Shown: piece by piece, positions 10,284-22,448 of the stretch
Numbering within the stretch: the stretch's first letter is position 1
Layout: the number at the start of each line of letters is the position of its first letter
Virus record (IMG/VR): IMGVR_UViG_3300034061_002205
Span: 1-24,093 of that record
DNA length: 24,093 bases
Source of the DNA: a virus
Reading direction: 5' to 3' (one strand)
Position numbers and translations under genes: made by a program
The notes under the pieces: generated by a model
Database searches by the model: none
What the model saw: the letters and a program-made list of their open reading frames with translations, nothing else
What the model was told of the DNA's origin: nothing

Positions 10284-10661
10284 TTAAAGAATTTTTCTAA
10301 AGGTTTTTTCGTAACCTATAAATTGTTGTTGTAGTTTAATTATTTCTTTTATTTCAGGTGAATTTGAAACGTCAATACCTAATTCTTTTGCTTTTGTTGT
10401 AAAAATTTTAATTTCTTCGTTTGCGTTACTTATTAATAAACTTTTAGTTGCGTCTAACCTACTTCTTAAACCACTTTTTACCATTTCAATTTTATCTAAT
10501 TGTTTAGTTAATTCAACAAATGAATTTTTGTCAATTTCAATAACTTTTTTGCCTGTATCAATTAATCTTTTTAAATCATTAATAGTTCTTAACTCAACTT
10601 CGTGCTTTGCTAACTCCGTTTTGTCGGATAACCTATCGTAAACGTTTTGTAGTGTGTTCAT
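10284..10661 (-). CDS. hypothetical coiled-coil protein, 125 aa
   Basis: This is a Lys/Glu/Leu-rich, almost fully helical protein with heptad-like stretches (LKRLIDTGKKVIEIDKNSFVELTKQLDKIEM). Its C-terminal part (AKELGIDVSNSPEIKEIIKLQQQF) resembles the C-terminal part of the protein encoded at 10993-11439 (AKSLGLDSKSVKGYSEAKDL), suggesting a shared ancestor or fold. Position between protease and scaffold genes points to head assembly. The function is unknown. Confidence 0.6.
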   Translation of the reverse strand: MNTLQNVYDRLSDKTELAKHEVELRTINDLKRLIDTGKKVIEIDKNSFVELTKQLDKIEMVKSGLRSRLDATKSLLISNANEEIKIFTTKAKELGIDVSNSPEIKEIIKLQQQFIGYEKTFRKIL

Positions 10662-10992: not shown

Positions 10993-11439
10993 TTATTTTA
11001 ATTGCGATAAAATCTTTTCTCCTGCAAGTTTAGATTGCTCTAATTCTTTCATATACTTTTCATTTAATTTAATTAAATCTTTAGCTTCAGAATAACCTTT
11101 TACACTTTTAGAATCTAATCCCAAACTTTTTGCTTGTGAATCAATTTGACTTAAAATTTTATTAAATTCTTGATTTTGAAAACCTAAAAGATTTTTAGCG
11201 CCGGGAACACTTTTAATATAAGATTGCATATTATCAATATCGTCTACAGCTGAATAAAGTTTATTCCAAGTAACTTTAATATTATCAATAAACCTACTTG
11301 CTTCGCTTACTGCATTTTTATTACTACCTACTAATTTTGTTAAATCATCAGTTAAAGCCAATTCTACTTTTTGACTTGCTAACTTTGCTTCTACTTTTGC
11401 AGTAATATCTGCAATAATTAATTCTTTAGTTGTTTTCAT
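10993..11439 (-). CDS. hypothetical helical protein, 148 aa
   Basis: This helical protein is rich in Lys, Ser, Leu and Asp, with coiled-coil potential at residues 5-25 and 100-145. Its C-terminal region is distantly similar to that of the protein at 10284-10661. The start overlaps the protease gene by 14 bases. Being between the protease and scaffold-like genes, it is probably involved in head assembly, for example as an internal or scaffold-associated protein. I recognise no domain. Confidence 0.6.
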   Translation of the reverse strand: MKTTKELIIADITAKVEAKLASQKVELALTDDLTKLVGSNKNAVSEASRFIDNIKVTWNKLYSAVDDIDNMQSYIKSVPGAKNLLGFQNQEFNKILSQIDSQAKSLGLDSKSVKGYSEAKDLIKLNEKYMKELEQSKLAGEKILSQLK

Positions 11440-19477: not shown

Positions 19478-19642
19478 TTAATTATTTGCTGTTTTGTTGT
19501 GTTCGTTTTTTTGTATGTAATCGTAAGCTTGTTTTAACATATTAATATCTCGGATATCACGTAAATAAATACGAACCTTAACGCCTTTTTTTTGGTAGAT
19601 GTAAATCTGTACGCATTGCATCATTACTTCTAAATCGTTCAT
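19478..19642 (-). CDS. small hypothetical protein after the large terminase, 54 aa
   Basis: The protein MNDLEVMMQCVQIYIYQKKG, VKVRIYLRDI, then a helix (MLKQAYDYIQKNEHNK) looks like a small alpha-beta fold. Its ATG overlaps the terminase stop (ATGA), which supports translation. The next gene starts 11 bases after it ends. No family is recognised. Confidence 0.65.
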   Translation of the reverse strand: MNDLEVMMQCVQIYIYQKKGVKVRIYLRDIRDINMLKQAYDYIQKNEHNKTANN

Positions 19643-20799
19643 CGTATAAAATATTGTCCGTGTGTATTGTTTAACCCTAACGTTTCCATTTCGTGGTATC
19701 TAACAGCGTCTATTGCGTGGTCGTTTTTGCCTTGCGGTTTGTTTAATGTTTTACCAGACTTGTCAGCATCCCAACAGTAAGCTCTTAATTCTTTTATTAG
19801 GTTTGTGCTTTGTGAAGTAACTAAATAATTTTGTGACTGCATTATTTGTATTCCGTAGTTTACACTATCTGCGCCCTTTGTTACTCCTTTTATTTGTTGT
19901 CCTGTTCTGCGTATTTCTTCAATGCTTTTTGGTTCTGAACTATCTGCGTATGCTATTACGTGTTTTTGTAGTTTCTTTGCTATGTCGTTATTCAATAAAC
20001 TTGTTTGGTAACATATTTCGTTTAGTATTCTTTGTCCGTTGTAATTGTAAACTTCAACTATGCTTGTTGGGTCGTTACTATAACCGAAGTCTAAACCGTA
20101 ACCAAGTAAACGTGCTTCAGTTGGTATTGTGTCAATTAGTTTCCAATTACTAAATATAACTCCTTCTAACATTCCGACAAGTCCTTCTCCATATACTCGC
20201 CACCAATTAGCCCAATAACTGCTTGTCGTGGCTTTTAAGCGGTTCTTTTCTATTTCCGTTACTATTCGTTCATCTAACGCTTCGTTGTCTTTGTACGTTA
20301 AAATTAAAAAGTCTGTGTCGGGTTCGTCTTTTAGTTCCGTATGTACCCAAAATTCATTTGCTGGGTTAAAGTCAAGGTATATTCGTTTTTTTGTACGTAT
20401 TGCAAGTTCGTTATATGCTTCAAATGTTACATTGTTACATTCGTTAATATAAAGAATATCACGTCTTGCACCCCTTAATTTACTGCTATCGTCTGCACTA
20501 AAAAATTCAATGTATGAACCATTTTTAAAATCGTACCTTAATAAACTTTTGTTAAAACTACTTTCAAAAAAACGGTTACTCCAACGCATTATTTTAACGA
20601 AGTCTTTTAATGCGCCCCTTCGTAAGTGTGGAATACTTTCAGCAACTATACTTATTTCCGTGTTTTTGTGCTTTGTCGCTATGTCTATTAATAAAGGAAT
20701 TACGCCAAAAGTTTTACCAGCTGAAGTACCGCCTTGAATTATTTTTATTCGCTTGTCTAACTTTGCAATCTTACTAATTGCAGTCGTCCGTATTAACAT
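19639..20799 (-). CDS. terL: terminase large subunit
   Basis: This 386-aa packaging motor has an N-terminal ATPase domain with Walker A GGTSAGKT (23-30), Walker B ILYINE (115-120, catalytic Glu120) and the coupling segment YLDFNPANEFW. The C-terminal nuclease domain has acidic residues at Asp237 (GLDFGY), Asp286 (AYADSSEP) and Asp360/Asp364 (NDHAIDAVRY). It belongs to the PBSX/Terminase_3 type. It cuts concatemeric DNA and drives it into the prohead through the portal. The gene overlaps the small-subunit candidate by 26 bases. At 386 aa it is compact but has all expected motifs. Confidence 0.93.
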   Translation of the reverse strand: MLIRTTAISKIAKLDKRIKIIQGGTSAGKTFGVIPLLIDIATKHKNTEISIVAESIPHLRRGALKDFVKIMRWSNRFFESSFNKSLLRYDFKNGSYIEFFSADDSSKLRGARRDILYINECNNVTFEAYNELAIRTKKRIYLDFNPANEFWVHTELKDEPDTDFLILTYKDNEALDERIVTEIEKNRLKATTSSYWANWWRVYGEGLVGMLEGVIFSNWKLIDTIPTEARLLGYGLDFGYSNDPTSIVEVYNYNGQRILNEICYQTSLLNNDIAKKLQKHVIAYADSSEPKSIEEIRRTGQQIKGVTKGADSVNYGIQIMQSQNYLVTSQSTNLIKELRAYCWDADKSGKTLNKPQGKNDHAIDAVRYHEMETLGLNNTHGQYFIR

Positions 20800-21109
20800 C
20801 AGGAAATAAAGGTTGTTCTATATTTGTTTGTTCTATTTGTTGAACAGGCGCACCGTAGCCACTATCCATTAGTGCTTTGTATGCTGAAACATCTCCGTCA
20901 CGCATTTTTTTAACCATTGCTAAAGTTCCCAAGTCTTCTTGTGTTAAAATTTCTTCAACGCCTGTTATTGGGTTCTTTGCTTTTTGTGTTGTTTCTAACC
21001 AAAGACGCGCTATTGTGCTGCGGTTTCTACTTCCTTTCGGACGTCCAGCAGGGTTTCCGCTTTCGCCTTTATTAAATTCGTGTTTTGTTATGTTTTCTTT
21101 GTTTGGCAT
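20774..21109 (-). CDS. DUF5681 protein, probable terminase small subunit
   Basis: The motif FNKGESGNPAGRPKGSRNRS near the N-terminus is the hallmark of the DUF5681 family, a basic AT-hook-like segment (GRPKGSRN) that can bind the minor groove of A+T-rich DNA. The middle is helical (TQEDLGTLAMVKKMRDGDVSAYKALMDSGYG), as in DNA-recognition subunits of terminases. The gene ends inside the large terminase gene, so its product is almost surely the packaging recognition partner. The 111-aa length is short but usual for this family. Confidence 0.8.
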   Translation of the reverse strand: MPNKENITKHEFNKGESGNPAGRPKGSRNRSTIARLWLETTQKAKNPITGVEEILTQEDLGTLAMVKKMRDGDVSAYKALMDSGYGAPVQQIEQTNIEQPLFPDVNTDDCN

Positions 21110-21127: not shown

Positions 21128-21352
21128 TTAAGAATAAAATAAAATGGAATTGTTTATTGTTTCAAGCACAACTAAATTTTCTTTTTTCAAGTCTGTATTT
21201 CCATAGCGTAAATCTGCTTTTCTTTTAAATAAAGATTTGCTTATAACGTATTCATTATTTATAGAATTTAACATACATTTTTTTAATATGTTTAAACGCT
21301 CCAAATGTTTTTTTTTTGTTATAAATTCGTTTTGCGGGTGTATTATTTTCAT
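21128..21352 (-). CDS. hypothetical basic protein, 74 aa
   Basis: This unrecognised Lys/Asn/Leu-rich protein (ITKKKHLERLNILKKCMLNS, SLFKRKADLRYGNTDLKKEN) has many AAA and AAT codons. It starts two bases after the methyltransferase-like gene stops, and the two share a base composition more A+T-rich than neighbouring genes, suggesting they arrived together. No membrane segment or motif is visible. Confidence 0.5.
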   Translation of the reverse strand: MKIIHPQNEFITKKKHLERLNILKKCMLNSINNEYVISKSLFKRKADLRYGNTDLKKENLVVLETINNSILFYS

Positions 21353-21354
21353 AG

Positions 21355-21915
21355 TTATTTTATTTCAAATATACAATAAATTTTTTTATTATCCATATAA
21401 CCTTTGTATTCAGTAATTTTGTTTTTATAAAGGTATTGCTTAAACATTAACCCTATGTTTTTTGCTAACAAACTTTTTTTATTCGTGTTTTTGTATATGT
21501 CACCAAAATAATTTTGCGCTAATAACTTGTCAGGGTTTAAACTAACGGGACTGCAATAAGTACACAATACAAAACCTTTAAAATTGCTTTTAAAAACTTC
21601 TTCTAAATAGTTTACGGGACTTCCCCAACTATCTAAATCTATAATATTAAAAACACTAATATCGTTGCTCTTTAAATATTTTAAAGCATTAATATTATAA
21701 TCAACATTAAATTTTTCGTTTGCGTCTATACTTATTCTTTTAATTTTTTTTTTTGTTTTTTTAATTACGGCGTTCCATAAAATGCTTTCTCCCGCAAAAC
21801 AATCAAGAATAAATGGTTCTTCCACGTTTTTAATTGCTTCCATTCGCAATTTAATTTTTAACGCTGTAAAATTTACGTCGTTGTTAGTTGCTTTTGAACT
21901 GCCCGGCCTTATCAT
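21355..21915 (-). CDS. methyltransferase-like protein with a Trm1-type DLDxWGSP motif
   Basis: Residues 36-49 (ILDCFAGESILWNA) match motif I of class I SAM-dependent methyltransferases, and Asp64 (ISIDAN) fits the acidic residue that binds the SAM ribose. The segment DLDSWGSP (93-100) corresponds in place and form to the DxDPFGSP catalytic motif of Trm1-type tRNA guanine N2-methyltransferases, but Ser replaces the usual Pro. It lacks the DPPY or NPPY motif of DNA amino-methyltransferases. At 186 aa it is a bare domain. The ATG overlaps the ParB-like stop (ATGA). The substrate (RNA, DNA or protein) is unknown, and it could also be an inactive relative. Confidence 0.55.
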   Translation of the reverse strand: MIRPGSSKATNNDVNFTALKIKLRMEAIKNVEEPFILDCFAGESILWNAVIKKTKKKIKRISIDANEKFNVDYNINALKYLKSNDISVFNIIDLDSWGSPVNYLEEVFKSNFKGFVLCTYCSPVSLNPDKLLAQNYFGDIYKNTNKKSLLAKNIGLMFKQYLYKNKITEYKGYMDNKKIYCIFEIK

Positions 21916-22448
21916 TTTGTAACAACTTCCACTAAACCTTTATTTTTAAAGTTTTCTATTTGCAGTAATAAATCTTCAACGTCATTGAAACATTGTTCTT
22001 TTATTGTTAATAACAATATGTAATCAGTATTGTCGTTTATTGTTTCTCCGCCTAACGTTGTTTCAAATTCTTCAGCGCTTAAATCTAACGGCAAGTCTAA
22101 ACCCCAATCTTGTAATTTCTCCGTGTCCCATTCATTAGCTAAAATATCCCAATCCCATTCGCCAAACCCTACGTTGTCTTTTACTATAAATTCGTCTTTT
22201 TGTTCTTCTGTTAAATCTTTTGCTTGTACAATATAAACTTCTTTTAGTCCTGCTTCAATACAAGCTTTATGTCGCATATTTCCACCCAAAATAATATTGT
22301 TTTCATCTACAACTATTGGTCGTAGTTCTAACATTTGCGGAAACTCTTTAATTGAATTGACTAACTTTTTAAACTTGTCGTCTTTTATTAAACGTGGGTT
22401 TTTTGGGTTCGTCTTTATGCTGTTTATTTTAACCTTCGCTACTTGCAT
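21912..22448 (-). CDS. ParB-like N-terminal domain protein
   Basis: Residues 1-105 carry a ParB/Srx-like domain: INSIKTNPKNPRLIKDDKFKKLVNSI, then LRPIVVDENNIILGGNMRHKACIEAGLKEVYIV. The central GGNMRHKA corresponds to the GxxR motif of the family. Next comes KDLTEEQKDEFIVKDNVGFGEWDWDIL, seen in phage proteins of this type. The C-terminal 60 residues are acidic and lack a helix-turn-helix, so it is probably not a partition protein. Such phage proteins often sit beside methyltransferases and terminases and may bind or nick DNA. It overlaps its upstream neighbour by 20 bases and its downstream neighbour by four. Confidence 0.8.
   Translation of the reverse strand: MQVAKVKINSIKTNPKNPRLIKDDKFKKLVNSIKEFPQMLELRPIVVDENNIILGGNMRHKACIEAGLKEVYIVQAKDLTEEQKDEFIVKDNVGFGEWDWDILANEWDTEKLQDWGLDLPLDLSAEEFETTLGGETINDNTDYILLLTIKEQCFNDVEDLLLQIENFKNKGLVEVVTK

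Follow-up and report, generated by a model that had tools for sequence, protein, structure and literature searches.

Phage genes that join a ParB fold to a methyltransferase are already known. The available part of a 2025 survey describes ParB-fold proteins as nucleotide-binding switches, reports that fusions of N6/N4 methylases to this fold are frequent in phages, and lists bacterial ParB folds fused to UPF0020 proteins, which are predicted RNA methyltransferases (PMC12704722). In cryoconite phages, a variable region ends at the large terminase gene, and ParB and TerS appear in a figure legend in the accessible sections of that report (PMC7468147). For the tRNA-modifying Trm1 proteins, a distinct C-terminal domain is described in the accessible text of another study (PMC9957541).

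The locus analyzed here lies in IMGVR_UViG_3300034061_002205, a 24,093-base virus fragment examined over its full length and referred to as the window. A methyltransferase gene with Trm1-type motifs was originally predicted between ParB-like and terminase genes, and the gene order bears out this location. Loci recovered in our searches are numbered with the prefix L.

Layout and composition of the locus

The interval from 21128 to 21915 consists of two genes, both on the minus strand. One encodes a 186-aa Trm1-like class I methyltransferase (21355 to 21915), assigned by a subthreshold Pfam TRM match, an AlphaFold2 model, and Foldseek searches. The other, a 74-aa gene (21128 to 21352), follows the methyltransferase, has homologs in L110 and L251, and could be a third component. 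The ParB-like partner of 178 aa (21912 to 22448, minus strand; ParB_N PF02195, E 8.7e-8) precedes both, and an ATGA overlap joins its end to the methyltransferase start. The conserved flank beyond the 74-aa gene is formed by a small terminase-like gene (DUF5681; 20774 to 21109, minus strand; PF18932, E 3.8e-13) and the large terminase subunit (19639 to 20799, minus strand; PF17288, E 7.4e-13, and PF04466, E 1.8e-11). No tRNA genes were found within the 24,093 bases.

The methyltransferase and 74-aa genes, at 26.4% and 22.2% G+C, are more A+T-rich than their neighbors, as had been noted from the sequence (31.8% for ParB, 39.3% and 34.9% for the terminase genes; 32.7% for the whole window). Equally low values occur in other window genes (25.9% at 10284 to 10661 and 26.0% at 10993 to 11439), so low G+C alone is weak evidence, and acquisition is not argued from it alone.

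A class I methyltransferase related to Trm1

The reading frame at 21355 to 21915 is a real gene that, judged by its predicted fold, encodes a class I methyltransferase. The sole Pfam match of the protein is TRM (PF02005; residues 43 to 121, E 1.4e-5), with a score of 24.9 bits that falls under the family threshold of 27, and the NCBIfam equivalog TRM1 (TIGR00308; E 8.2e-5) scores 22.1 bits, far under its cut-off of 280.65. The N6/N4 DNA methyltransferase model PF01555 gave no match at an E of ≤1, and no DNA-methylase model in Pfam matches the protein, in agreement with the reported absence of DNA-methylase motifs. Both motifs that suggested a methyltransferase in the first place are present: SAM-binding motif I, DCFAGES, at residues 38 to 44 (21784 to 21804, minus strand), recognized by sequence and column conservation, and motif IV, DLDSWGSP, at residues 93 to 100 (21616 to 21639, minus strand), which occupies the position of the Trm1 DxDPFGSP and aligns with DLDPFGTP/DLDPFGSP of Trm1 (3axs and 2dul). 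In the phmmer alignment to 3axs, the stretch VDLDPFGTPVPFIESV is matched by IDLDSWGSPVNYLEEV in the window protein, at an E of 0.35 that is not significant alone. A profile of 48 rows searched against PDB sequences reached Trm1 (2dul) only at an E of 0.46, which is no evidence by itself, and PDB sequence matches such as perakine reductase were taken as chance.

The 48 rows comprise the window protein, the L110 protein, and 46 of 58 unique sequences from a broader family described below, the other 12 being truncated or omitted to limit size. Four columns (R24, D93, D95, and G98) are invariant in all 48, a level of conservation that is far above chance. K20, G42, P100, and T119 are each kept in 47 rows; at position 38, 45 rows have D and 3 have E. 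Loss of SAM-binding residues across homologs, an outcome that would speak against a methyltransferase, was checked and not found; the SAM-site and motif IV residues are kept. Directly after D95, 47 rows have A or S and one has H, in place of the P of both Trm1 sequences compared; at the next position, Y occurs in 23 rows, F in 16, H in 6, and W in 3. The D..D..G pattern is therefore kept in 48/48 rows in a form that departs from the strict Trm1 motif IV, DxDPFG(S/T)P, and the TDG that follows motif IV in P. horikoshii Trm1 is TYC in the window clade.

AlphaFold2 models were built on 48 relatives. The window protein was modeled with a pLDDT of 79.1 and a pTM of 0.77, and a broader-family member from L182 with a pLDDT of 92.8 and a pTM of 0.90. 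For both models the best Foldseek match in the PDB was 3axs, the Trm1 of Aquifex aeolicus (E 3.0e-5 for the window, 7.3e-8 for L182), and P. horikoshii Trm1 entries were also within the top nine for the L182 model. Alignment to 3axs with VIA-align gave a Z of 9.8 for the window protein (166 residues aligned, rmsd 4.2) and 11.8 for L182 (181 aligned, rmsd 3.7), scores less than one unit apart from those of other class I enzymes, which for L182 include RNA methyltransferases; no DNA amino-methylases were among the best 50 matches listed for the L182 model. These comparisons of predicted structures support both the class I fold and the Trm1 relationship, and a fold other than that of a class I methyltransferase was not found. 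The top BFVD match, a methyltransferase of Stenotrophomonas phage DLP5, was dropped; its DLP3 counterpart is Erm-like in the accessible text of the source (PMC7326821).

The VIA-align alignments cover residues 15 to 228 (window) and 15 to 232 (L182) of the 387-residue 3axs chain, that is, only its catalytic part, and the Trm1 C-terminal domain is missing from the 186-aa protein. Because its scores are below the family cut-offs and this domain is missing despite the matching catalytic fold, the protein is related to Trm1 and is not a Trm1.

Exchange of the cassette together with the ParB tail

Comparison by blastn with 13 sister loci, at 85 to 94% DNA identity per piece, placed the borders of the acquired DNA. 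Homology stops at 21128/21129 in 8 of the 13 and at 21046 to 21077 in 5, and it resumes inside parB, at 22059 to 22098, in all 13. The exchanged piece thus runs from 21129 to 22098 and takes in the tail of ParB together with the methyltransferase and 74-aa genes. These breakpoints confirm the proposal that the cassette was acquired, with the 74-aa gene as part of it. Acquisition of the methyltransferase gene also stands; the idea of an isolated insertion does not, the gene being one of several alternatives that occupy a swap slot, as well as a member of a large ParB-linked family.

Two phages with other backbones, L110 and L251, show the same order of ParB, methyltransferase, and 74-aa homolog. 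Protein identities to the window are 68% and 61% for ParB, 56% and 60% for the methyltransferase, and 35% and 38% for the 74-aa homolog (L110 and L251, respectively), and the large terminase behind the cassette is unrelated-looking in L110 and 38% identical in L251. Between the window and L110, the methyltransferase has a dN of 0.38 against a dS of 1.53, a dS near saturation (none was computable for the window and L251), so the gene is under purifying selection. The 74-aa gene follows the methyltransferase in all three members of the window clade (window, L110, and L251), and its product has no convincing match in Pfam, PHROG, or NCBIfam. In Dulem virus 36, the place of the 74-aa gene right behind the Trm1-like gene is taken by a radical SAM gene (phrog_13321; L002, 6573 to 7358), which might carry out a second step on the modified base.

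Among pairs of ParBs with N domains at least 90% identical, the median identity of the tail was 0.74 when the partner enzymes were of the same class (n = 24 pairs) and 0.09 when they were of different classes (n = 29 pairs). The ParB tail is co-exchanged with its partner enzyme. Since same-class pairs may share recent descent, the tail data are read as co-exchange, and we infer from them that the tail could dock the enzyme. The tail of the window ParB (21912 to 22448) changes completely with the neighboring enzyme, as if it were an enzyme-specific adaptor.

The slot after ParB in related phages

Presence or absence of the gene across related phages was surveyed in two sets of loci. By tblastn, the Trm1-like methyltransferase was absent from the first set, 80 loci with relatives of the window large terminase (75 to 99% identity). 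A second set of 80 more loci came from a ParB scan, with some contigs present in both sets. Together, 108 of the 160 loci had a ParB match, the other 52 being cut, lost, or too divergent, and 105 had a readable gene after or fused to ParB (the slot was cut in 3). Unique slot sequences numbered 88 of the 105. The window itself has its gene directly after a ParB_N domain and before TerS/TerL, in the same place as the slot genes in all 13 sister loci compared.

Classes were labeled from scanned representatives and clustering at a phmmer E of <1e-6. On this basis the 105 slots held 54 N6_N4 methylases fused to ParB, 21 Mom proteins, 11 TAGT glycosyltransferases, 8 ABC-ATPase plus GNAT proteins, 4 C5 methylases, 3 TGT-like proteins, and one each of D12, TET/JBP, an FkbM-type methyltransferase, and a Trm1-like protein (L110). 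Some relatives have an empty slot (L020, L022, and L057). Because the 8 ABC plus GNAT and the 1 FkbM-type proteins are without an established DNA role, and the 3 TGT-like proteins are named as a tRNA enzyme, the slot is not established as exclusive to DNA enzymes.

The ABC-ATPase fused to GNAT (phrog_11143; L023, 790 to 1890, L045, L124, and others) is a candidate for an undescribed DNA modification. The TGT-like slot proteins (L149, 3579 to 4457; L163, 3488 to 4408; L176), annotated in PHROG as "queuine tRNA-ribosyltransferase," are possibly DpdA-type DNA enzymes. A TET/JBP oxygenase and several TET-associated glycosyltransferases occupy the slot in L145 (2724 to 3614) and in L013, L122, L158, L162, and L170. 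L047 (441 to 2008), which has no ParB match, carries genes for QueE-like and GTP cyclohydrolase I proteins ahead of TerS, a combination that points to 7-deazaguanine chemistry.

An unannotated virus family paired with ParB

Scans of viral contigs with the window protein, the Dulem protein, or a two-row profile of both recovered no relatives. Relatives were recovered through the ParB scan (L110), a motif pattern, a nine-row profile, and a two-row profile (L251). The pattern DLD[A/S]FGSP found 18 stretches, 12 of which were relatives by a two-row profile; the other six (L083, L087, L088, L093, L095, and L098) were dismissed as chance. The nine-row profile reached 65 loci in viral contigs, and removal of duplicates left 58 further unique family sequences, a set in which L181 is cellular and a few members are pattern matches. 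None of 10 members tried matched PHROG below an E of 0.001, and Dulem virus 36 was the sole match among 50,697 phage records. The Trm1-like gene belongs to an unannotated virus family. Scans of 10 proteins from 8 loci found large-terminase matches downstream of family members in L184, L185, L198, L201, and L234 and one just under the cut-off in L090, with none downstream in L193 or L197.

Cellular genome contigs yielded one locus, in Bradyrhizobium elkanii, and the same genome was the only one with a family member among 397 genomes of its order. The reading as a cellular housekeeping enzyme was rejected, the family being very rare in cells. In that locus (L181, 4830 to 5641, strain WSM2783), the gene is split over two frames, by decay or by sequencing error.

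Of the 58 unique sequences, 53 have a ParB-like gene upstream on their own strand at a distance of at most 1.5 kb (39 of them within 300 bp), compared with 1/58 that have one downstream and 0/58 that have one upstream on the opposite strand. ParB is the immediate upstream neighbor in the window, L110, L251, and Dulem virus 36 as well. In L090 and L227, less than 270 bp of upstream sequence is present; in L213 and L214, ParB is at 1.9 to 2.4 kb; and in L241, no ParB was found in 5 kb upstream. The second of two ParB profiles was trained partly on ParBs adjoining family members; the first, built from window-type ParBs only, detected 60 adjacent ParBs (E < 1e-3) for 83 methyltransferase ORF rows, which include duplicates and fragments.

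Proposed role and substrate

Because the slot in relatives mostly holds DNA-altering enzymes, the gene most likely encodes a ParB-partnered DNA-modifying methyltransferase, a reading to which we assign a probability of roughly 0.7. A phage DNA base methyltransferase built on a Trm1 catalytic domain would modify the phage's own DNA during infection. Its partners would be the ParB-like protein from the gene immediately ahead and, perhaps, the 74-aa protein from the gene behind. ParB would serve, by analogy, as a DNA-loading or targeting switch, its variable tail would hold the enzyme in place, and the expected benefit would be protection against host nucleases. For a descendant of tRNA-type enzymes that acts on DNA, DpdA, which is akin to tRNA-guanine transglycosylase, sets a precedent. 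In the accessible text of one source it is named as the enzyme responsible for guanine replacement in DNA (PMC8651126). Counting against a DNA-modifying role are the motif IV without the DPFG proline, with W for F, and with TYC for TDG, as well as the VIA-align tie, the known ParB-UPF0020 fusions, and the ParB exceptions in L241, L213, and L214.

As to the base, Trm1 homology suggests an exocyclic amino group, with guanine N2 in DNA as the tentatively favored target; other targets are kept in consideration because the DPFG motif is changed. That a ParB-guided enzyme makes N2-methyl- or N2,N2-dimethyl-deoxyguanosine in phage DNA, with ParB as the adaptor for swapped chemistries, is a working proposal that falls short of even odds. 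Somewhat doubtful, within the same overall reading of a DNA-modifying enzyme in this slot, is a DNA methyltransferase for adenine N6, cytosine N4, or an already modified base, in which the likeness to Trm1 would be one of fold only. In the window motif IV, two of the four DPFG residues of Trm1 are replaced, and many slot enzymes come from adenine- or cytosine-targeting families; against this, Pfam gives no N6/N4 methylase match, and the DxDxxGSP pattern is one that Trm1 also has and DPPY-type motifs lack.

The original prediction envisaged a Trm1-type enzyme that modifies tRNA or another nucleic acid. The methyltransferase stands, and tRNA is no longer its preferred substrate, given a slot and a ParB partner typical of phage DNA-modifying enzymes and the missing Trm1 C-terminal domain. 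A trimmed Trm1 that methylates guanine N2 in tRNA or other RNA, altering host translation or protecting tRNA, would fit with Trm1 being the closest family by sequence and structure, and ParB folds are also fused to predicted RNA methyltransferases in the available part of the survey (PMC12704722). The absent domain, the exchange of the gene with DNA-modifying enzymes, the lack of a tRNA gene in the window fragment, and the fixed link to ParB make such an enzyme unlikely. A catalytically dead protein, or a methyltransferase for something other than nucleic acid, such as a regulator or an enzyme acting on a protein like ParB, could be suspected from the lost DPFG proline and from the variation among Y, F, H, and W at the next position; because 45 to 48 of the 48 rows retain the acidic, glycine, and motif IV residues and the gene is under purifying selection, this alternative is very improbable.

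Comparison with known systems

The protein is a testable candidate guanine-N2 DNA methylase. Literature searches found nothing on a Trm1-like phage family or an N2-methyl mark in phage DNA, with the proviso that key papers may lie outside their coverage, and as far as these searches tell, an enzymatic N2-methylguanine mark in DNA would be new. If the proposal is correct, such a minor-groove mark could block other nucleases than known marks do, and a tRNA-type enzyme would have switched to DNA within a family of viruses that current annotation misses. Ten gene classes occur as partners of a single ParB domain, making the swap slot minable for unknown DNA chemistries, such as that of the ABC plus GNAT proteins, and ParB-like phage proteins are likely to be modification adaptors rather than partition proteins.

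Among described systems, the variable islands of cryoconite phages, with their orphan DNA methyltransferases, likewise exchange methyltransferase genes between variants; Trm1-like enzymes are not mentioned for them in the accessible sections of that report (PMC7468147). Phage ParB-N6/N4 fusions resemble the window in having a ParB-type N domain and a methyltransferase partner, as the available part of the survey describes them (PMC12704722), and those in the loci analyzed here sit in the same place beside the terminase genes. The window partner differs in that it is a stand-alone Trm1-like protein, has no PF01555 domain, and is followed by the 74-aa protein. The Mom, TET/JBP, TAGT, and TGT/DpdA-like genes share the slot after the same ParB N domain and represent different chemistries and protein families. 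With Trm1 itself (tRNA (guanine26-N2) dimethyltransferase; PF02005, TIGR00308; 3axs and 2dul), the phage protein shares the catalytic-domain fold, the motif order, and DxDxxGSP. It is about half the length, lacks the C-terminal domain, scores below the family cut-offs, and belongs to a family with DSWG or DA(F,Y,H)G where Trm1 has DPFG, and unlike Trm1 it is encoded in a DNA-modification slot with ParB.
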